Shown in pieces: positions 32,865-43,738 of a stretch of DNA of 64,000 bases. Each line of letters opens with the position of its first letter. The first letter of the stretch is position 1. Source of the DNA: Pseudorhodoplanes sp. (lineage in GTDB: Bacteria > Pseudomonadota > Alphaproteobacteria > Rhizobiales > Xanthobacteraceae); assembly GCA_019187085.1 (NCBI GenBank), contig JABARS010000021.1:1-64000 (forward strand), written 5' to 3'. The translations under genes and the position numbers were made by a program. The notes below the pieces were generated by a model. That model was not told where the DNA came from, searched no databases, and worked only from the letters and a program-made list of their open reading frames with translations.

Positions 32865-34136
32865 GTGCCGCGCAAGAGCCACTTGTTTACCAGCGAATCC
32901 GTGTCCGAGGGACATCCGGACAAGGTGAGCGACCAGATTTCCGACGCCATCCTCGACGCCTTCATTGAGAACGATGTCAAACTCGGCATTGCCGACGAAA
33001 GCCTCGTCAACACGCGGCTCGGCTGCGAGACGCTGACGACCACCAACAAGATCGTCATCGCCGGCGAAGGCCGGGGCCAAGCTCCGTTCTTCAAGAATTA
33101 CGGCTCGAAGGCCGTGGTGAACCGCGAGCTGATCACCGAGATCGCGCGCGAGGTCGTCAAGGATATCGGCTACGACCAGGACGGCTTCTCCTATCACGGC
33201 GCCGACGTCGAGGTGCTGCTGCACGGCCAGTCGCCCGACATCGCCATGGGCGTCGATGCCAAGAAGAAGGGCGCGGAGCAGGAAGGGGCCGGCGACCAGG
33301 GCATGATGTTCGGCTTCGCCTGCACCGAGAGCGAGGTCTATGAGAAGAACTCGTTCATGCCGGCGCCGATCTATTTCGCGCACAAGATCCTGAAAGTGCT
33401 GTCCGACCAGCGCCGCTCCAAGAAGCTGTTCGACCTGCAGCCCGATTCCAAGAGCCAGGTCACGGTCAAATATGTCGACGGCAAGCCGGTCGGCTGCACC
33501 AAGGTCGTGGTTTCGACGCAGCACAACGCGACGAGCCGCAACGGCAAGAAATACACCCCCTCGATGGTGAAGGACCTGATCGGCGACGCGGTTGCCTCCG
33601 CCCTGCCGAAGGGCTGGATGCCGGCCCGGGAGTCCGACTTCCTCGTCAACCCGACCGGCAATTTCGTGGTCGGCGGCCCGGACGGTGATTGCGGCCTGAC
33701 CGGACGCAAGATCATCGTCGACACCTACGGCGGCTATGCCCCGCACGGCGGCGGTGCCTTCTCGGGCAAGGACCCGACCAAGGTCGACCGCTCGGCCGCC
33801 TATGCCGCGCGCTATCTGGCCAAGAACGTGGTCGCCTCCGGCGTCGCCGAACGCTGCACGATCCAGGTGGCCTATGCCATCGGCGTCGCCGACCCGATGT
33901 CGCTTCTGGTCGACACGCACGGCACCGGCAAGGTCGACGAAGCCAGGCTCGAGAAGATTCTGGCCGAGCTTTTCCCGCTGCGGCCGACCAATATCCGCCG
34001 CACGCTCAAGCTCAACCGGCCGATCTATCGCCGCACCGCGGCTTACGGCCATTTCGGCCGTGCGCCGGAAAAGGACGGCGGCTTCTCCTGGGAAAAGACC
34101 GACCTCGCCGACCAGATCCGCCGCGCCTTCAAATAA
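32865..34136 (+). CDS. metK: S-adenosylmethionine synthetase
   Basis: MetK makes SAM from methionine and ATP. The 423-residue protein includes GHPDKVSDQ near residue 20, the ATP-binding hexapeptide GAGDQG near residue 143 and [19 protein letters not shown] near residue 297. Length is longer than the usual 384, typical of this order because of an extended loop near residue 133 and elsewhere. The start is a GTG with GGGAG upstream. It follows the XRE gene by 129 bases. Confidence 0.97.
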
Positions 34137-34180
34137 CGGGCGCCGTCATACGCCCCCGTCGACAGGGGTTGAGTTTTGCA

Positions 34181-34207
34181 GACGGCCGCATCATGGATGC
34201 GGCCGTC
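34181..34207 (+). promoter_or_regulatory. Hairpin whose loop is the probable trmB start codon
   Basis: GACGGCCGCATC (34181-34192) and GATGCGGCCGTC (34196-34207) are perfect complements separated only by ATG (34193-34195). The stem is therefore 12 base pairs with a three-base loop, and its loop is the best candidate start codon of trmB. Confidence 0.7.
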
Positions 34208-34975
34208 ATGCATTCAGGGTCTCACAAATCAGGGTCTTATAAAGACGACGGGCTTGAAGGCGGCGGGTTTGCCGCCGGCGACCGCGCCTTCTTCGGTCGC
34301 CGCAAGGGCAAGCGCTTGCGCACCCATCAGGCGCACCTGCTGGAAACGCTGCTGCCGCAGCTCGCCGTGAACCTCGCCTCGCCCGCGCCTGCCGACCTCA
34401 CGACATTGTTCGCGCCGGGCGCGCAGGAGGTACGGCTCGAAATCGGTTTCGGGGGCGGCGAGCATCTGATCGCGGAAGCGCAGCGCCATCCGCAGGTCGG
34501 CTATATCGGCGTCGAGCCGTTCGTGAACGGCATGGCGAAGGCGCTCGCGGCGATCGAGAAGCACGAAATGACGAATATCCGCCTGCATCAGGGCGACGCC
34601 GCCGAGGTGCTCGCCTGGCTGCCCGACGACGCGCTCGCGCGCATCGACCTGATCTATCCCGATCCCTGGCCGAAGCGGCGGCACTGGAAGCGCCGGTTCG
34701 TGCAGGACCGCATGGTGAGCGCGCTGGCACGGGTGCTGCGGCCGGGCGGCGTCTTCCGCTTTGCCAGCGACATTGCCGACTATGCGGCCTGGACGCTGAT
34801 CCGTTTCCTGCGTTCGCCGTCCTTCGAATGGACGGCGGAAAAAGCCGCCGACTGGCAGGCGCCATGGTCGGGATTTGACAGCACGCGCTACGAGGCGAAG
34901 GCCAAGCGCGAGGGGCGCGCGCCCTGTTACCTGACATTCCGCCGCCGCCCGCCGGCCAAGGTCGGCGTGCGCTAA
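34193..34975 (+). CDS. trmB: tRNA (guanine-N7-)-methyltransferase
   Basis: TrmB makes m7G46 in tRNA using SAM. The 260-residue protein has the SAM-binding motif [11 protein letters not shown] near residue 82, the TrmB motif [15 protein letters not shown] near residue 155 and a C-terminal methyltransferase part ending in FRRRPP. The start at 34193 is an ATG in the loop of a strong hairpin; a second ATG at 34208 lies right after the hairpin and would be better exposed. The first ~25 residues are poorly conserved, so either start is possible. Confidence 0.93.
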
Positions 34976-35073
34976 AGCGTTTTCGAGCGAAGTGGGGACC
35001 GGCTCGCGTGAAGAAAACGCGTCAAAGCAAAAAGTTGGAACCCCTGTTTTGATTCCATCAAAGCAGGAAAGAC
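34973..35073. repeat. Dispersed palindromic element after trmB
   Basis: GCGTTTTC (34977-34984) pairs with GAAAACGC (35013-35020), and a second hairpin follows (CCTGTTTTGAT with ATCAAAGCAGG, 35043-35067). The sequence matches a repeat family I remember as common in intergenic regions of Bradyrhizobium-type genomes. It lies between the convergent trmB and DUF2336 genes and may terminate one of them. Confidence 0.6.
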
Positions 35074-35074
35074 T

Positions 35075-36184
35075 CTAGCCGGCCGGCGACACGCCTTCGG
35101 CGGCGCGGCCGTGCCCCGCCTGCCAGAAGCGCACGACGCGTTGCGCGGTCGCAGGCGACAGCCGCTCGAAGTTCGCCTGTGCCTCGTCGAGCGTCGCGCT
35201 CGATTTGCCGCGCGTGCCCGGCCGCACGAGAATGAGCGCGCGCGCGGTCGACCAGGAAAATCCGTTCGCCTTACACAGGATGAGGATCGGGTCCGGACGC
35301 TCGCCGTACATGAGCTTGTCGACGACCTCGAGCGGCACCGCGCAAAGCTTCGCAAGCGCGACGGCCGTATGCTCGTAGCGACCCTTGCCGGCATGCTCGA
35401 TAAGACAGGCCTGGTCGAGCGTGCCGGCCGCGACCAGCCGGTCGATATCGGCCAGCGCCGCGGAAAAATCCCGGTCGGCGGGCATGCCCGCGCCGACCTC
35501 GCTCGACACCTTGGTCAGGACCCGCCGGATCTCGGCCTGCGTTTCCGGTCTGGCCGCCGCCAGCAGGCGACGCTGGACGACCTCGGTCGCCCGCAGGACC
35601 AGTTCGCGGAACAGATAGGCCGGAATATCGGCGCGCTGCGCCACGCTTTCGGCCAGCGCCGAATCCCGCTCCGCCCGCTTGACCAGCCGCGCATAGCCGG
35701 TGTCGGAAAGCCGCGCGCCGGGATTTTCGGCCATCTTGCGCACGACCTCCTGGTCGCCGCGCGAGACGAGAATGTCGGTGATGCTTTCGGTCAGGCTTTC
35801 GCGCGCCGAGATCGCATAAAGGTGCGACTGCCCCTTCGAGCGCGCGATTGAGAGGATGTCGGCATCCGCAAGCCGCGGCGATTTCGCCAGGATAGGCCCG
35901 GCGATCATGATGTCGTCGTCTTCCGCGAGGCGCCGGATGATTTCGGTCGGCGCATTGGCGATCGGAGCCAGCCGCCGCGACAATTCCGCGCGCGCCTTGG
36001 CCTCGATTTCCTCGATCAGACGCCCGAAGACGTCGTCGAACAGGCGGATATGGTCTTCGTTGAAACGCGGAGCGCTTTGCAGAAACAGCGTCGTGATCTG
36101 CCGCAGGACGTCGCCGTGCTTTTCCGGAGAACCGTGCTGAAGGACCTCTTCAAGTTCCGGTATCAGGGAGGCGACAGGGGGCAT
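35075..36184 (-). CDS. DUF2336 domain-containing protein
   Basis: A 369-residue, largely alpha-helical protein without signal peptide or membrane segment. The pattern of helical repeats with SxxLTESITDILVSRG, YARLVKRAERDSALAESVA and FRELVLRATEVVQRRLL is that of the DUF2336 family, in which the repeats resemble HEAT-like scaffolds; the function is unknown. The start at 36184 (MPPVASL) was chosen over a TTG at 36226. It is convergent with trmB and divergent from the rimP promoter region. Confidence 0.8.
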   Translation of the reverse strand: MPPVASLIPELEEVLQHGSPEKHGDVLRQITTLFLQSAPRFNEDHIRLFDDVFGRLIEEIEAKARAELSRRLAPIANAPTEIIRRLAEDDDIMIAGPILAKSPRLADADILSIARSKGQSHLYAISARESLTESITDILVSRGDQEVVRKMAENPGARLSDTGYARLVKRAERDSALAESVAQRADIPAYLFRELVLRATEVVQRRLLAAARPETQAEIRRVLTKVSSEVGAGMPADRDFSAALADIDRLVAAGTLDQACLIEHAGKGRYEHTAVALAKLCAVPLEVVDKLMYGERPDPILILCKANGFSWSTARALILVRPGTRGKSSATLDEAQANFERLSPATAQRVVRFWQAGHGRAAEGVSPAG

Positions 36185-36279
36185 TGGCGGGACGCAAAAC
36201 ACGGACAATGGCAGGGGTTCCCGCAAATCTAGAGAGGGAGTGTGAACGAAGCGTTAGCCATGCCGGCCGGGCCGCGGCC

Positions 36280-36307
36280 TTGCGAAGGGCCGAAAATGCG
36301 CTATATT
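36280..36307 (+). promoter_or_regulatory. Probable promoter of the rimP-nusA-infB operon
   Basis: TTGCGA (36280-36285) and TATATT (36302-36307) are separated by 16 bases. The position, about 160 bases before rimP and just upstream of a terminator-like hairpin, fits an attenuated leader. Confidence 0.6.
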
Positions 36308-36355
36308 CGGCGCGTCCGCTAATGGACATCTCATAAATCCAAGCTGGGTTTGTTG

Positions 36356-36387
36356 AGAGTGGGCCCCGCCCGGGACCCGCTCTTTTT
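36356..36387 (+). terminator. Terminator-like hairpin in the rimP leader (possible attenuator)
   Basis: The stem AGAGTGGG with CCCGCTCT (eight pairs, one G-T; loop of 12 bases, 36356-36383) is followed directly by TTTTTG. It lies 80 bases upstream of rimP, after the promoter, so most transcripts could be stopped here unless antiterminated. This is a classical attenuator layout. Confidence 0.6.
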
Positions 36388-36467
36388 GTTATCTGAATGC
36401 GGCTTTCGTGACGCCATAGCCGCACCGGGCATACGGACGTCCAGTCAGACCCATTCCGATCAGGCCC

Positions 36468-37163
36468 ATGACGACGACTGCCAAAGCCAATGCCGCCGCC
36501 GAGCCGCGACTGATCGTCGAGCCCGGGCTGGCCGCGCGCGTGGCCGCCATAGCCGAGCCGGTCCTGCACGACCTCGCTTTCCGGCTGGTCCGCGTGCGGG
36601 TCACGGGCGCCCAGGGCTGCACGGTGCAGATCATGGCCGAGCGCCTCGACGGCACCATGAGCATCGAGGATTGCGAGGCGGTGTCGCGCGCACTTTCGCC
36701 AGTGCTCGACGTTGCCGACCCGATCGAGGGCGCCTACCGGCTCGAGATTTCGTCCCCCGGCCTCGACCGTCCGCTGGTGCGGCGCTCGGATTTCGAACGG
36801 CACGCCGGCCATCTCGTGAAGATCGAGATGAACGTCGCCATCGAGGGCCGCAAGCGCTTCCGCGGCGCCATTCTGGGCGTCGAGGGCGACGCGGCGCGCA
36901 TTCGCCGCGACGATGCCCGTGCCGGCGAGGAGACCGACGTGCTGCTTCCGATCGAGGACATGCTGGAAGCCAGGCTCGTGCTCACCGACGCGCTCGTGGC
37001 CGAATCCCTGCGGCGCGGCAAGGCCGCCGGGCGCGAAGCGCAGGAACAGCACGAACCGGCACGTGCGCGCCCCACCCGCAACGGCGGCAGAGCCGCCCGA
37101 CCCGACCATTTCCGGCCCGCGAAAGGCAAGAAGCCCCGCGCGGCCCATTATGAAGGAGACTGA
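36468..37163 (+). CDS. rimP: Ribosome maturation factor RimP
   Basis: RimP assists 30S maturation. The 231-residue protein has the family N-terminal domain ([40 protein letters not shown]) and the SH3-like C-terminal domain with [18 protein letters not shown] near residue 95; the last 50 residues are a basic, poorly conserved extension typical of this order. It stands three bases before nusA, which has its own GAAGGAG site. Confidence 0.95.
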
Positions 37164-37166
37164 CCG

Positions 37167-38774
37167 ATGGCTGTCAGCGCCAACCGGCTCGAACTGTTGC
37201 AGATCGCCGACGCAGTCGCGCGTGAAAAGTCGATCGACCGCAGCATCGTGATCACCGCCATGGAGGATGCGATCGCGAAAGCCGCCCGCTCCCGCTACGG
37301 CGCGGAAACCGACGTGCATGCCGAGATCAATCCCAAGACCGGCGAACTGCGCCTGGCGCGGCATCTGCTGGTCGTCGAGACCGTCGAAAACCCGTCGAGC
37401 CAGATCAGCCTAGACGACGCCCGCGTGCGCAACCCCGCCGCACAGATCGGCGACACCATCGCCGACGCCCTGCCGCCGCTCGAATATGGCCGCATCGCCG
37501 CCCAGTCCGCCAAGCAGGTGATCGTGCAGAAGGTGCGCGAAGCCGAGCGCGACCGGCAGTACCAAGAATACAAGGACCGCATCGGCGACATCGTCAACGG
37601 CATCGTCAAGCGGGTCGAATACGGCAACGTCGTCGTCGATCTCGGCCGCGGCGAAGCCATCGTGCGGCGCGACGAGATGCTGCCGCGCGAGACGCTGCGC
37701 ACCGGCGACCGCATCCGCGCCTATATCTATGACGTGCGCCGCGAGCCGCGCGGCCCGCAGATTTTCCTGTCACGCACGCATCCGCAATTCATGGCGAAGC
37801 TGTTCGCCCAGGAAGTTCCGGAAATCTACGACGGCATCGTCGAGGTGAAGGCGGTCGCGCGCGATCCGGGATCGCGCGCCAAGATCGCGGTGGTGTCGAA
37901 CGATTCCTCGGTCGACCCGGTCGGCGCCTGCGTCGGCATGCGCGGCTCGCGCGTGCAGGCGGTGGTCAACGAGCTGCAGGGCGAGAAGATCGACATCATT
38001 CCGTGGTCGCCCGACATCGCCACCTTCGTCGTCAATGCGCTGGCGCCGGCCGAAGTCGCCAAGGTGGTGCTCGACGAGGACCGCGAGCGCATCGAGGTGG
38101 TGGTTCCCGACGCCCAGCTTTCGCTGGCCATCGGCCGCCGCGGACAGAACGTGCGCCTGGCGTCGCAGCTCACCGGCTGGGATATCGACATCCTGACCGA
38201 ACAGGAGGAATCGGAGCGCCGCCAGACCGAGTTCCAGAACCGCACCAAGATCTTCATCGAGGCGCTCGATGTCGACGAGGTCGTCGCGCAGCTTCTGGCT
38301 TCGGAAGGCTTCACCTCGGTCGAGGAACTGGCGCTGATCAATCCCAAGGAAATCACCTCGATCGAAGGCTTCGACGAGGAGACCGCCGAGGAATTGCAGA
38401 ACCGCGCGCGCGATCATCTGGCGCGGATCGAGGCGGAATACGACGCCAGGCGCCGCGAACTGGGCGTCGCCGACGCGCTGAAAGACGTGCCCGGCGTCAG
38501 CACGCCGATGATGGTCAAATTCGGCGAGAACGACATCAAGACGGTCGAGGATCTGGCCGGCGCGGCCACCGACGACCTCGTCGGCTGGACCGAACGCAAG
38601 GACGGCGAATCCACCCGCCATCCCGGCATTCTCGACGGCTTCGAGCTGTCGCGCGAGGACGCCGAGGCCATCATCATGCAGGCGCGCGTGAAGGCCGGCT
38701 GGATCAGCGAGGCCGATCTCGCGCCGGCCGTCGTAGAAGAGACGGCCGACGAGCCGGCCGAAGCGCAGGCCTGA
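37167..38774 (+). CDS. nusA: Transcription elongation/termination factor NusA
   Basis: NusA modulates pausing, termination and antitermination. The 535-residue protein begins with the NusA N-terminal domain, then S1 (about residues 137-200), KH1 and KH2 (about residues 205-345, with [27 protein letters not shown] and [17 protein letters not shown]), and C-terminal helix-hairpin-helix repeats near residues 365-520 typical of alphaproteobacteria. The start has GAAGGAG. It is followed by ylxR at 17 bases. Confidence 0.97.
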
Positions 38775-38791
38775 ACCGGAGCACCCCGACG

Positions 38792-39469
38792 ATGCTGGTG
38801 CATGCCGTTCCCGACGACAGCGATGCCGGTCCGAAAAAGGCCGGACGGGAACGGCTGTGCGCGCTCACCCGCGAGGTCAGGCCGGTCGCCGAGATGATCC
38901 GCTTTGTGGTCGGCCCCGACGGCAGCGTCGTGGCGGACCTCAAATGCAATCTTCCCGGCCGCGGACTGTGGCTGACCGGCACAAGTCAGGCGCTGGCCGA
39001 GGCGATCAAGCGCCGGGTCTTCGCCCGCGGGTTCGGGCAGGACGTCCGGGTACCGGCCGATTTTCCCGACCGCGTCGAGACCCTACTCGAAGCGTCGGCC
39101 CTCGACGCGCTGGCGATCGCCCGCAAGGCGGGCGCCGTCGCCTGCGGATTCATGAAGGTGGAAACCGCCCTGGCCGACGATCCGGTCATCGCGGTCATCC
39201 ATGCCGGCGGCGCCGGCGCCGACGGAATCCGCAAGCTCGATGCGACCATCCGTCGTCATGGCGCTCCCGACCGGGCCGAAATCGCGGTCATTTGCGATTT
39301 CGACGGCAGCCAAATCGATTTGGCATTGGGCCGGCCAAATGTGGTACATGCTGCCCTGCTCGCCGGTCCGGCAGGGAACACTTTCATCGCCCGATATCTG
39401 CGCTTGAAACGTTTTCGGACCGGCGGACAGGACAATCCGGACGCCGGCCAAACACAGCGCAAAGCCTGA
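38792..39469 (+). CDS. YlxR/DUF448 RNA-binding protein
   Basis: A 225-residue protein with an N-terminal YlxR (DUF448) domain: [22 protein letters not shown] near residue 23 and [12 protein letters not shown] near residue 51. A second region resembling ribosomal protein L7Ae (residues about 98-190, with [18 protein letters not shown]) follows, as is usual in alphaproteobacteria. Both suggest RNA or nucleic-acid binding in the nusA-infB operon. The start is an ATG with GGAG ten bases upstream. Confidence 0.92.
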
Positions 39470-39483
39470 GGACTGACAGCGGA

Positions 39484-42057
39484 ATGAGCGACACGAAGAA
39501 TCCCGGCGACAAGAAATTGGGCGTAGGCAGCAAGACGCTGACGCTCAAGCGTGGCGTCGAGCAGGGGACCGTCCGCCAGAGCTTCAGCCACGGCCGAAGC
39601 AAGCAGGTCGTCGTCGAGAAGGTGAAGCGCCGCGTCATCGGCGCACCCGCCGAAGCCAAGCCCGAGACGGCCGCTCCCGAGACGCCGGCCAAGCCCGCGC
39701 CCGCCAGGAGTGCCGCAGGCAGGGCCGCGGCTGCGAAGGCCGCGCCGGCCGAGGCCGCGCCCAAGCCGTCCGGCGTCGTGCTGCGCACGCTGACCGAGGA
39801 AGAGCGCGTCGCGCGCGCGCATGCGCTCGCCGATGCGCGCGTCCGCGAGGCCGAGGAACGCAAGCTCGCCGAAGAGGAAGCCCTGCGCCGCGCCAGCCGC
39901 GAGGTCCATGAAAAGGCCGACCGCGAAGCCGCCGAATTGCGCAAGCGCGAGGAAGACGAGCGTCATCGGCGCGAGGAAGAAGCCAAGCGCAAGGCCGAGC
40001 AGGAAGCCAAGAAGCGCTTCGGCGAGGACGTGACCGCCCGCGTCGGCGCGGCGCGTCCGGCCCTCGAAGCCGAGGAAGAAGAAGCCCCGCGCAGCGCCCG
40101 TCGCGGTGCCGGCGCTGCCCCCCGTCCGGCGGTTACGCCGCGTCCCGCCCGCGGCGGCGCGCAGAAGCAGCGTACCCGCCTCACCCTCGTCACCGCGCTG
40201 ACTGCCGACGAAGAACGCGAGCGATCGGTCGCTTCCTTCCGCCGCCGGACGCAGCGCCTCAAGGGTCACGCCTCCGACGAGCCGAAGGAAAAACTTGTGC
40301 GTGAAGTCATCGTTCCGGAAACGATCACGATCCAGGAACTCGCGAACCGCATGTCGGAGCGCGGCGTGGACGTCATTCGCATGCTGATGAAGCAGGGCCA
40401 TATGGCGACCATCAACGACGTGATCGACGCCGATACCGCGCAGCTGATCGCCGAGGAACTCGGCCATAGCGTCAAGCGCGTCGCCGAATCGGACGTCGAG
40501 GAAGGCCTGTTCGACACCGCCGACGATCCCGCTTCGCTCGTTGCGCGCGCCCCCGTCGTCACCATCATGGGTCACGTCGACCACGGCAAGACGTCGCTGC
40601 TCGATGCCATTCGCCAGACCGAGGTGGCGGCCGGCGAGGCCGGCGGCATCACCCAGCATATCGGCGCCTATCAGGTGACGTCGCCCTCGCACGGCAAGGT
40701 CACGTTCATCGACACCCCGGGCCACGCCGCCTTCACCGCGATGCGCGCGCGCGGCGCGCGGGTCACCGACATCGTCGTGCTGGTGGTGGCCGCCGACGAC
40801 GGCGTGATGCCGCAGACGATCGAAGCCATCCATCATGCCAAGGCGGCGAAGGTTCCGATCATCGTCGCCATCAACAAGATCGACAAGCCGGACGCCAAGC
40901 CCGAACGCGTGCGCACCGAGCTGCTCCAGCACGAAATCCAGGTGGAATCGCTCGGCGGCGACGTGCTCGACGTCGAGGTGTCCGCGATCAAGAAGATCAA
41001 TCTCGACAAGCTGCTCGAAACCATCGGCCTGCAGGCGGAAATCCTCGACCTCAAGGCCAATCCGAGCCGTCCGGCCGAGGGCACGGTCATTGAGGCCAAG
41101 CTCGACCGCGGTCGCGGACCAGTGGCCACCGTGCTCGTCCAGCGCGGCACGCTGCAGGTCGGCGACATCGTCGTCGCCGGCACCGAGTGGGGACGCGTGC
41201 GCGCGCTCGTCAACGACACCGGCCAGACCGTGCAGAGCGCCGGGCCCTCGATCCCGGTCGAGGTCCTGGGCTTCAACGGCACGCCCGACGCCGGCGACCG
41301 CCTCGCGGTCGTGCAGACCGAGGCACGCGCCCGCGAAGTGACCGACTATCGCTCGCGCCAGCGCCGCGACAAGCTGGCCGCGCGCGCGACCGGCATGCGC
41401 GGCTCGCTCGAACAGATGATGGCCCAGGTCAAGACGGCAGGGCGCAAGGAATTCCCGCTCATCGTCAAGGGCGACGTGCAGGGCTCGATCGAAGCCATCC
41501 AGGGCGCGCTCGACAAGCTGTCCACCGACGAGGTGGCCGCCCGCATCATCCATTCCGGCGCCGGCGGCATCACCGAATCCGACGTCACGCTCGCCGAATC
41601 TTCGGGCGCGGCGATCATCGGCTTCAACGTGCGCGCCCACAAGGAGGCGCGCGAGGCCGCGGAGCAGGCCGGCATCGAAATCCGCTACTACAACATCATC
41701 TACAATCTCGTCGACGACGTGAAAGCCGCCATGTCGGGCCTGCTCACGCCCGAACGGCGCGAAACCATGCTGGGCAACGCGCAGATCCTCGAGGTCTTCA
41801 ACGTGTCCAAGGTCGGCAAGGTCGCCGGCTGCCGCGTCACCGACGGCACCGTGGAGCGCGGCGCGAATGTGCGCCTGATCCGCGACAACGTCGTGGTGCA
41901 CGAAGGCAAGCTGTCGCAACTGAAGCGCTTCAAGGACGACGCCAAGGAAGTCACCGCCGGCCAGGAATGCGGCATGGCGTTCGAGAACTACCAGGACATG
42001 CGCGTCGGCGACGTCATCGAGTGCTATCGGGTGGAGCAGGTCCAGCGCAGCCTCTGA
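39484..42057 (+). CDS. infB: Translation initiation factor IF-2
   Basis: IF-2 is the GTPase that brings initiator tRNA to the ribosome. The 857-residue protein has a long charged, alanine/glutamate-rich N-terminal part (residues 1-270), then GTP-binding motifs [12 protein letters not shown] near residue 362, [16 protein letters not shown] near residue 408 and [11 protein letters not shown] near residue 462. The C-terminal half has the IF-2 C1 and C2 domains. The low-complexity N-terminus is typical for the order. It follows ylxR by 14 bases. Confidence 0.97.
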
Positions 42058-42087
42058 GTCCAAGTCTCGGGGCTTCGACTGTCGTCT

Positions 42088-42118
42088 GTCGTCGCCGGGG
42101 TTGCCCCGGCGATCCATC
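42088..42118. repeat. REP-type palindrome between infB and rbfA
   Basis: TCGCCGGGG (42092-42100) pairs exactly with CCCCGGCGA (42104-42112), a nine-base-pair stem with a three-base loop followed by TCCATCC. It belongs with the CCGG-type REP palindromes at 49646-49675 and 53832-53854, all of which end in ATCCA. Confidence 0.7.
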
Positions 42119-42200
42119 CGCAAAGAAGCAAGTCTTGCGAAGCTTATGAATGCGCGGGTCAAATCTCCATTGCCCGCGCACGAGCATATTTGAGATCGTC

Positions 42201-42611
42201 ATGCGACACAGGAAGCAAAGAAACGATACCGGTCCCGCCGCGGCATCGCAGCGCCAGTTGCGCGTCGGCGAACTGATCCGCCACGCCGTCTCCGACATGC
42301 TGACGCGCGGCGAGGTGCACGATCCCGTGCTTGAAGGCCATCTCGTCACCGTACCGGAAGTGCGCATGACCGCGGACCTGCGGCTCGCCACGATCTATGT
42401 GATGCCGCTCGGCGGCAAGGACGAGAACGAGGTCATCGAGGCGCTCAATCGAAACAAGCGCTTCCTGCGCGGAGAAATCGCGCACCGCGTTAACCTGAAA
42501 TTCGCACCTGAAATCCGCTTCCGGACCGACGAGCGATTCGACGAGGCGGAACGGATCGAGAAATTATTGAGAACACCCGCGGTCCGGCGCGATCTGAAGG
42601 GCGATGAATGA
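42201..42611 (+). CDS. rbfA: 30S ribosome-binding factor RbfA
   Basis: RbfA is a KH-fold 30S assembly factor. The 136-residue protein begins [34 protein letters not shown] and has the family pattern [21 protein letters not shown] and [23 protein letters not shown]. The ATG at 42201 is chosen over the upstream open frame because of family length; its Shine-Dalgarno is weak. Its stop overlaps the truB start (ATGA). Confidence 0.95.
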
Positions 42612-43738
42612 ACGAGAAGGATCCGCGCAATCCCTCCCGGCCTCAGGGTGAGGAGCATGCGCCGCATGCGTCTCGCACCATGGGGCCGTCCCCATCCTTC
42701 GAGACGCGCCCTGCCGATGCTTCTCAGGGTGAGGGCGGACGAAAGCAGCAATTCCGGCGCGAGAAACGCGACGTGCACGGCTGGGTCGTGCTCGACAAGC
42801 CCATCGGCATGACCTCGACGCATGCGGTCGCGGTGGTGAAGCGGCTGTTCTCGGCCAGACGGGCGGGCCATGCCGGCACGCTCGATCCGCTCGCCTCGGG
42901 CTGCCTGCCGGTCGCGCTCGGCGAGGCGACCAAGACCGTGCCGTTCATCATGGACAGCCGGAAGACCTATCGCTTCACCGTCCGCTGGGGCGAGGAGCGC
43001 GACACCGACGACGCGGAGGGGCGCGTCACCGAGACGAGCGCCGAGCGCCCCTCGCGCGAAGCCATCCTCGCCGTCTGCCCCCGCTTCACCGGCCGGATCG
43101 AGCAGACCCCGCCCCGCTTCTCGGCGATCAAGATCGAGGGCGAGCGCGCCTACGATCTGGCCCGCGACGGGCAGGAGGTCACCCTGCAGAGCCGTCCCGT
43201 GGACATCGAACGGCTGACGCTGGTCGACATTCCCGACCCCGGCCATGCCGTTTTCGAGGCGGCTTGCGGCAAAGGCACCTATGTGCGGGCCCTGGCGCGC
43301 GACATGGGGCGCGAACTCGGCTGTCTCGGCCATGTTTCGGCGCTGCGGCGGACCTCGGTCGGACCGTTCGGGCCGGTTGAGATGATTTCACTGGAACAAC
43401 TTACGGCTTTATGCGATAGAGCCGCCGCCGGCGAGGCGCGCCTCGCCGATGCATTGCTGCCCGTCGAGACCGCGCTGGACGACATCCCGGCGCTGGCCGT
43501 CAGCCGGGCGGACGCGGCAAGGCTCCAGCGGGGTCAGGCCGTCCTCCTGCGTGGACGGGACGCTCCCATACTCCACGGCACGGTTTACGTCACCGCAGCG
43601 GGCGAACTGGTCGCCCTTGCCGACGCCGACCGTGGCGAGATCGTCCCCAAGCGCGTGTTCAACCTCGCCGGGCTGCACGGCAGCGCGGTACGAAGAAAGG
43701 TCATCGACGATGTCGATTACGGTCAGCCGCAAGGCTGA
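42608..43738 (+). CDS. truB: tRNA pseudouridine(55) synthase TruB with a repeat-encoded N-terminus
   Basis: TruB makes pseudouridine-55 in tRNA. The catalytic aspartate lies in [12 protein letters not shown] near residue 98 and the core starts at about residue 55 ([19 protein letters not shown]). The protein is 376 residues, longer than usual: residues 12-43 come from a palindromic repeat (42641-42734) that matches an intergenic repeat at 52816-52924. The start is secure because the ATG overlaps the rbfA stop (ATGA) and the frame remains open; an internal ATG (residue 25) is less likely. The extension has no visible fold and precedes the conserved core. rpsO starts 29 bases before the truB stop. 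Confidence 0.94.
42641..42734 (+). repeat. Palindromic repeat inside the truB coding sequence
   Basis: The block begins CCTCAGGGTGAGGAGC, contains CGTCTCGCACCATGG and CCTTCGAGACGCGCC, and ends CTCAGGGTGAGGG. It aligns along its full length with the intergenic copy at 52816-52924 (CCTCATGGTGAGGAGC ... CATCCTTCGAGACGCGCC ... CTCAGGATGAGG). The outer ends form inverted CCTCA/TGAGG elements. It is in frame with truB, giving residues 12-43. Confidence 0.85.

Follow-up and report, generated by a model that had tools for sequence, protein, structure and literature searches.

A hairpin that shares its foot with the rimP-nusA-infB leader terminator in Pseudorhodoplanes and relatives: a candidate brake on attenuation

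In a Pseudorhodoplanes sp. genome, the operon that carries nusA begins with a promoter, and a terminator-like hairpin stands between that promoter and the first gene. Is this hairpin part of a switch, and if it is, could NusA be the signal that the switch reads? We address these questions in a window of 64,000 nucleotides (assembly GCA_019187085.1, contig JABARS010000021.1, positions 1 to 64,000 of the forward strand) and in related genomes. Pfam matches give the gene order 3' of the leader as rimP-nusA-ylxR-infB-rbfA-truB, all on the plus strand: rimP at 36468-37163 (RimP_N 5.4e-23, DUF150_C 1.9e-14; ATG at 36468), nusA at 37167-38774 (NusA_N 5.3e-39, KH_5, S1), ylxR in frame 38003-39466 ahead of infB (YlxR 2.3e-17), infB, encoding IF2, at 38857-42057 (IF-2 7.2e-42, IF2_N; the open frame is long, and the actual start is further inside it), rbfA at 42150-42611 (RBFA 6.9e-30), and truB at 42608-43738 (TruB_N 7.2e-52). 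The nearest RimP found among genome contigs belongs to a Pseudorhodoplanes MAG (88% identity). On the other side of the leader, a DUF2336 gene (35075-36226, minus strand, by Pfam) lies between a trmB-like methyltransferase gene and rimP and is divergent from rimP; at L007 and L008 the bases directly 5' of the leader resemble, by eye, the 3' end of the trmB-like gene instead.

Promoter, hairpins and their conservation

The preliminary description of this DNA placed here a promoter, TTGCGA-N16-TATATT, and a stem followed by TTTTT and 80 bases to rimP, and inspection of the sequence finds all of them where they were said to be. The promoter (36280-36307, plus strand, like all leader features) consists of a -35 element, TTGCGA (36280-36285), a 16-base spacer, and a -10 element, TATATT (36302-36307, within CTATATT); from its position, transcription is predicted to start at 36314, 7 bases after the -10 element and at the foot of the first hairpin. 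The intrinsic terminator (36355-36387) reads GAGAGUGGG-CCCCGCCCGGGA-CCCGCUCU and then a U-run, with arms AGAGTGGG (36356-36363) and CCCGCTCT (36376-36383) and TTTTT at 36383-36387; the U-run is UUUUUGUUA, five U interrupted by G at 36388, and the remaining 80 bases of leader (36388-36467) run up to rimP. What the preliminary description did not mention is a pair of hairpins upstream, one of which overlaps the terminator. Folds and covariation support P1, the 5'-terminal hairpin GUCC-loop-GGAC (36314-36327). Folds also predict P2, UCUCAUAAAUCC...GGGUUUGUUGAGA (36329-36358), a competing, antiterminator-like hairpin whose 3' foot, GAGA (36355-36358), is common to the terminator.

Taken alone, the window gives weak evidence for the promoter and the terminator. 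A sigma-70-type scan of 34000-43000 finds two promoter-like sites, the one at 36280 among them, versus 0.7 expected, and a simple terminator scan finds nine versus 7.5 expected, with the leader hairpin absent from its list. In predicted folds, the terminator hairpin is strong (-20.4 kcal/mol), and the 80-nt leader reaches -32.6 kcal/mol (z -3.46; 1 of 200 shuffles equally good); the 188-nt stretch running into rimP has no such advantage over its shuffles (z -0.79, 41 of 200 equally good). The pattern GAGAGTGGG-N3-16-CCCGCTCTTTTT, picked after sight of the motif, occurs once in the window and in none of 100 shuffles, and GAGTGGG-N3-16-CCCGCTCTTTTT has one copy in the 3.68-Mb assembly.

The decisive point is that the leader elements are conserved across relatives, which places them beyond chance. 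Such conservation had been named as a check in the preliminary description, and it holds: the terminator core lies 5' of rimP in 18 of 18 loci (L002-L019) that were found by RimP protein alone. By label or clear resemblance all 18 are alphaproteobacterial, 17 being labelled as groups of that class and one just as Proteobacteria; RimP led to 24 loci in total, and the remaining ones (L020-L025), from Clostridia and Schaalia, are outside this count. A wider set of 117 loci joins these 18, for which RimP is thus given, to 99 found through the leader, some of them repeats of one sequence; L018 and L019 are its members from lineages other than the window's order. RimP is present at 113 of the 117 (at 95 of the 99 leader-found loci, repeats included) and a core at 108. 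Five loci have RimP without the core pattern (L037, L050, L109, L250, and L284), and at L037, L250, and L284 a leader terminator with altered letters can be made out by eye.

Searches with the leader itself reach further. A loose BLAST at E<=1 gives matches in 56 of 61 genomes, the source genome included, although a large share of the poorest ones are short fragments that match by chance. Within the order, a covariance model from 27 leaders (R1) matches 165 of 249 genomes at E<=0.05, and across the class it matches 25 of 192 at E<=0.1; two of the seven class-level matches inspected are rimP leaders (L059 and L081), and five are not. The matches at L057, L058, L060, and L082 resemble terminators beside other genes, those at L057, L058, and L082 being weak covariance matches with a leader-like stem elsewhere, such as GAGAGAGGGTCC...GGGCCCTCTCTTTTTT; L083, in the source genome, looks like chance. 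RimP itself was found in 171 of the 192 class genomes. The strict core pattern is present in 76 of 130 regions read 5' of alphaproteobacterial rimP (30 from loci, 100 fetched); 109 of the 130 carry some hairpin with a T-run, part of which are other motifs. L240 and L241 have another stem, AGAGCGGGG...CCCGCTCT, with a T-run about 310 to 350 nt before the RimP match, and in the rimP leaders L204 and L208 the stem takes a variant form, GGGTGGCCCGG...CCGG.GCCACCT.

Forty leaders were aligned; 34 of these were used for the promoter, and alignment A1 holds 27 of the 34, seven short or divergent rows being omitted. With the -10 element placed by a TATRY pattern, TTGC stands 5' of it in all 34 leaders and CTTGC in 33, at a spacing of 16 to 17 in 32, and CTTG-N19-25-TATA-like sites occur in 86 of 108 leaders of the wider set on the forward strand and in 0 of 108 on the reverse. 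By its sequence, this is a housekeeping-type promoter. All 27 leaders in A1 retain the eight terminator pairs, and the stem is near-invariant: seven of the eight pairs, the U.G pair included, never change, and the U-run of these relatives mostly has six U. P1 has changes on both sides at four of five pairs (83.5% of cells paired), and the inner P2 helix has them at three of six pairs, where three rows, the window's included, are gapped at most pairs and the window's own P2 has other letters. Together, P1 and inner P2 show seven pairs changed on both sides, versus 2.7 in shuffles, with 0 of 500 as high. The anatomy in relatives is a -10 element, a short gap, P1 (GUCC/GGAC, GUCU/AGAC, or AUCC/GGAU), UCUCAUAA, inner P2, and a terminator with foot GAGA followed by GUGGG...CCCGCUCU-U5-6. 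A four-codon frame, ATG GAC ATC TCA TAA (36322-36336), lies near the 5' end of the window's leader; as a leader peptide (ATG-GAY-AYC-TCA-TAA) it was rejected, the ATG being present in 15 of 27 leaders and the start thus not conserved.

Nucleotides shared by P2 and the terminator

Does P2 truly contend with the terminator for the same letters? In the window, UCUCA (36329-36333) can pair with UGAGA, of which GAGA is also the terminator foot. Across 83 leaders, the four nucleotides before GUGGG have an upstream pairing probability of 0.737, versus 0.451 with the upstream part shuffled (Wilcoxon 1e-11, a value that is not clean given that rows share ancestry), and the probability is at least 0.5 in 68 of them. 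These 83 are leaders less than 80% alike, taken from the 108 that bear a core; nearly all come from the window's order, and most were collected by searches whose seeds (the window leader in BLAST, and R1) themselves include CUCA.

A three-letter pairing table for 84 leaders, which rests on best folds, follows each shared letter with its upstream and downstream partners. The shared letter is able to pair both ways in 51 leaders at -1, 71 at -2, 71 at -3, and 69 at -4, and in 13 of the 84 the -2 letter is unpaired upstream in the best fold. At -2, all three letters are changed, from C-G-C to U-A-U, in L136, which belongs to a family outside the order, and L143, from another genome of the same genus, has the same form. 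At -3, all three go from U-A-U to C-G-C in L274, and L266, of the same family, has identical letters via a different best fold. At -4, the upstream partner and the shared letter are changed in L108, L270, L256, and L103, the letters being A-U or U-A in the first three and downstream pairing being lost in L108 and L270. Judged from these letters, changes compensated on all three sides are few, clear in L274 and, outside the order, in L136. They are few, and partly shared by descent, because positions -1 to -4 scarcely vary (GAGA in 68 of 84); the overlap helix in the 27 aligned leaders, whose four pairs are 98.1% paired yet near-invariant, proves little.

Across the class, the overlap is not significant (0.379 versus 0.339, n = 74, p = 0.25), and the same 74 leaders have a significantly stable upstream hairpin (energy z -0.80, p 1e-6). 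The P2/terminator overlap therefore belongs to the order, together with at least one further lineage, and does not extend to the class as a whole. Two further motifs were considered. CUCAUA, which we take to resemble M. tuberculosis boxC, is not class-wide as a NusA-KH site; CCCATA occurs in 7 of 76 class leaders versus 1.05 expected and CCATAG in 6 versus 0.97 (75 nt 5' of the core, shuffles), weak counts given that many k-mers were tested and several of the strongest are promoter words. A long-range helix, CCTCATAAC/GTTACCTGAGG, across the U-run can be seen by eye in some leaders, but its downstream half is lost in many, and it was dropped.

Published relatives of the leader

By place and form, the leader terminator is of the published rimP-leader kind (Naville and Gautheret 2010, PMC2965389). 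It lies in the rimP-nusA-infB 5' leader, 80 nt before the gene (published range, 4 to 130), and has a G-rich/C-rich GGG...CCC stem and a U-run; the published stem is GGGc...gCCC, from which the window's GGGC...ACCC departs at one of the two lower-case positions, and GGGCC..GGCCC is common outside the order. For the general motif, that description reports no visible antiterminator, whereas the window's order keeps P1 and an overlapping P2; in some gammaproteobacteria, a second, upstream terminator comes with an antiterminator (PMC2965389). The nusA-operon attenuator of B. subtilis, likened here by description, is likewise a leader terminator, and NusA dependence is reported for it (PMC12288461). 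Rfam RF01770 (rimP) shares the gene context and is listed as the gammaproteobacterial form (PMC5955585). Its model has no match in the window at the gathering threshold, nor in 36200-36520 at E<=5, and none of 41 genomes is above the 47-bit cut-off; there are two weak own-genome matches on other contigs. The leader also gives weak Rfam matches to RefA9, on the opposite strand (E 0.34), and to L20_leader (E 1.5), both far below cut-offs and put down to chance.

For S. meliloti, we take the gene SMc02911 to be rimP. The RNA Sm76, between SMc02910 and SMc02911, has a conserved sigma-70 promoter and a terminator before SMc02911, with an expected length of 60 to 150 nt; it is detected on Northern blots in a complex pattern, is overlapped by SmelC037 (94 nt), and is conserved in rhizobia, Agrobacterium, Brucella, and Ochrobactrum (PMC2573895, PMC2873474). 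Likened by place and description, Sm76/SmelC037 probably come from the same leader as the window's. The preliminary description had raised the idea that the leader could also exist as a small RNA, and in relatives that idea gains support from Sm76/SmelC037 (PMC2573895, PMC2873474) and from the naming of the rimP leader among ProQ-associated RNAs derived from attenuators (PMC5391140). The competing P2, present in a large group of soil and plant-associated bacteria, seems to be a refinement that has not been described before: an alphaproteobacterial rimP antiterminator is not named among the literature titles and abstract openings listed, and a supplementary figure on Sm76, "alternative secondary structures," may already draw part of it. 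In word searches, nusA was unmentioned in PMC3927594, PMC7717549, PMC2245857, and PMC7566282, and infB in the latter three.

A proposed switch and its rivals

We propose that P2 resists completion of the terminator, leaving termination weak and NusA-dependent. In this mechanism, RNA polymerase would start near 36314 and make P1 first and P2 next, such that P2 would precede the terminator in time and sequester GAGA, the terminator's 5' foot. The terminator core, GUGGG...CCCGC, would then form beside P2, and completion would require GAGA to leave P2 for the UCUU adjoining the U-run. P2 would thereby act as a brake, and a fraction of polymerases would pass into rimP. NusA, which aids hairpin formation in the RNA exit channel, would shift the balance to termination, so that high NusA would shut its own operon by negative feedback; the terminated leader, of about 75 nt, may survive as a stable RNA. 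The folding order, the brake, NusA as the signal, and the survival of the short RNA are what we infer from an arrangement (promoter, P1, P2, terminator, and shared nucleotides) that sequence comparison establishes.

Predicted folds are consistent with such a brake. As the window leader grows in length, P2 is complete at 45 nt, stands beside the terminator core at 68 nt, and is shortened at 72 nt, where the terminator is full-length. Against competition, the overlap spans only 3 to 4 nt, which leaves room for P2 alongside most of the terminator, and the complete terminator remains the more stable fold. The gain from completing it is 3.0 kcal/mol in the window; over 84 leaders the median gain is 4.2 kcal/mol, versus 7.1 kcal/mol with the upstream letters shuffled (five shuffles per leader, keeping composition and not dinucleotides). 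Because completion still gains energy, and less than with shuffled letters, P2 is in these models a moderate brake and not a block. Signs that the terminator is suboptimal are mixed: its U-run is broken at 36388 and P2 competes with it, yet its hairpin is strong at -20.4 kcal/mol, and most relatives in A1 have six U.

Why NusA? The preliminary description read the terminator as an attenuator through which NusA regulates itself; attenuation draws support from conservation and from the published family of rimP-leaders (PMC2965389), and NusA as effector stands as a sound guess by analogy, and the best explanation, given the B. subtilis precedent. NusA there is reported to limit its own operon through leader termination, and NusA is reported to aid exit-channel hairpins and to drive termination where the hairpin is weak or the U-tract interrupted (PMC12288461, citing Mondal 2016 for the former). 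In E. coli, operon transcripts increase in mutants with lowered NusA termination, as recounted in PMC6511841. On the B. subtilis precedent we favor NusA-driven attenuation, and we lean modestly toward the full reading, in which the rimP-nusA-infB leader is a transcription attenuator with P2 as the brake and NusA driving termination.

Could the terminator work with no competition at all? NusA, or RimP, may act directly on the GUGGG stem, with P2 just a neighbor that stacks on the terminator or stabilizes the RNA. Protein recognition has been proposed (Naville and Gautheret, PMC2965389), the core recurs across the class, where the overlap is not significant, and in the 76 class cores (found with a pattern permitting G(T/C)GG(G/C)) GUGGG makes up the 5' arm in 72, whereas the 3' arm is split between CCCGC (38) and CCCAC (33), as would be expected if a factor recognized the letters of the 5' arm. 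Against this stands the order set, where the P2 foot matches GAGA beyond shuffles and the partner shifts with the foot in several leaders; we consider a plain terminator unlikely, if still a serious contender. Alternatively, temperature may set read-through, either by the balance of P2 and terminator or by a cold-shock protein, with RimP, NusA, IF2, and RbfA up in the cold. In E. coli, cold induces the operon, and two terminators lie 5' of rimP (PMC6511841); enrichment of Sm76 among short RNAs was detected in cold shock and in basic and oxidative stress (PMC2573895), and the window's competing folds are 3 kcal/mol apart; we rate control by cold as improbable.

We put slightly less faith again in the notion that promoter and terminator form an independent gene for a trans-acting small RNA, with rimP served by another promoter. 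P1 at the 5' end and the terminator at the 3' end do resemble a stable RNA, and Northern blots of Sm76 in S. meliloti have bands of about 90 to 100 and 180 to 210 nt (PMC2573895, PMC2873474). However, RimP accompanies nearly all leader-found loci, the motif is single-copy in the assembly, SmelC037 was assigned to type 3, the mRNA leaders (PMC2873474), and the sigma-70-type scan finds no promoter-like site between terminator and rimP (36388-36467). Last, the 3' arm GCUCUUUUUUGUUA, which we take to resemble E. coli boxA, almost certainly does not serve as a NusB/S10 binding site for antitermination: the rRNA upstream regions of three relatives read GCTGTTTGACA or GCTGTTTGAAA at the expected boxA place, CTCTTT is absent from the 420 bases 5' of 16S rRNA in these genomes (G031, G007, and G030, all of the same family; among 14 genomes these were the three in which a search located 16S rRNA, and none was found in the window's own assembly), and GCTCTTT is in the 3' arm of just 7 of 76 class leaders. 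We therefore reject a boxA-controlled leader here, although in gammaproteobacteria Nus-factor genes are reported to be under such control (PMC5725501).

To generalize NusA-driven attenuation further, might the Hyphomicrobiales share a three-hairpin switch, in which one tetranucleotide common to a brake hairpin and the rimP terminator lets the NusA level be read as the ease of strand exchange, setting RimP, NusA, IF2, and RbfA together and freeing a stable leader RNA? We offer this wider version tentatively, as one that may well prove wrong. The rimP-leader has been termed the most ubiquitous bacterial attenuator (PMC2965389), and how its terminator is regulated has been left open in the general form because no antiterminator was seen; a conserved competing hairpin offers a concrete, testable switch, in genetically tractable bacteria such as Sinorhizobium and Bradyrhizobium. 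If true, it would tie Sm76, a short RNA that is detected and unexplained, to the control of NusA and IF2.
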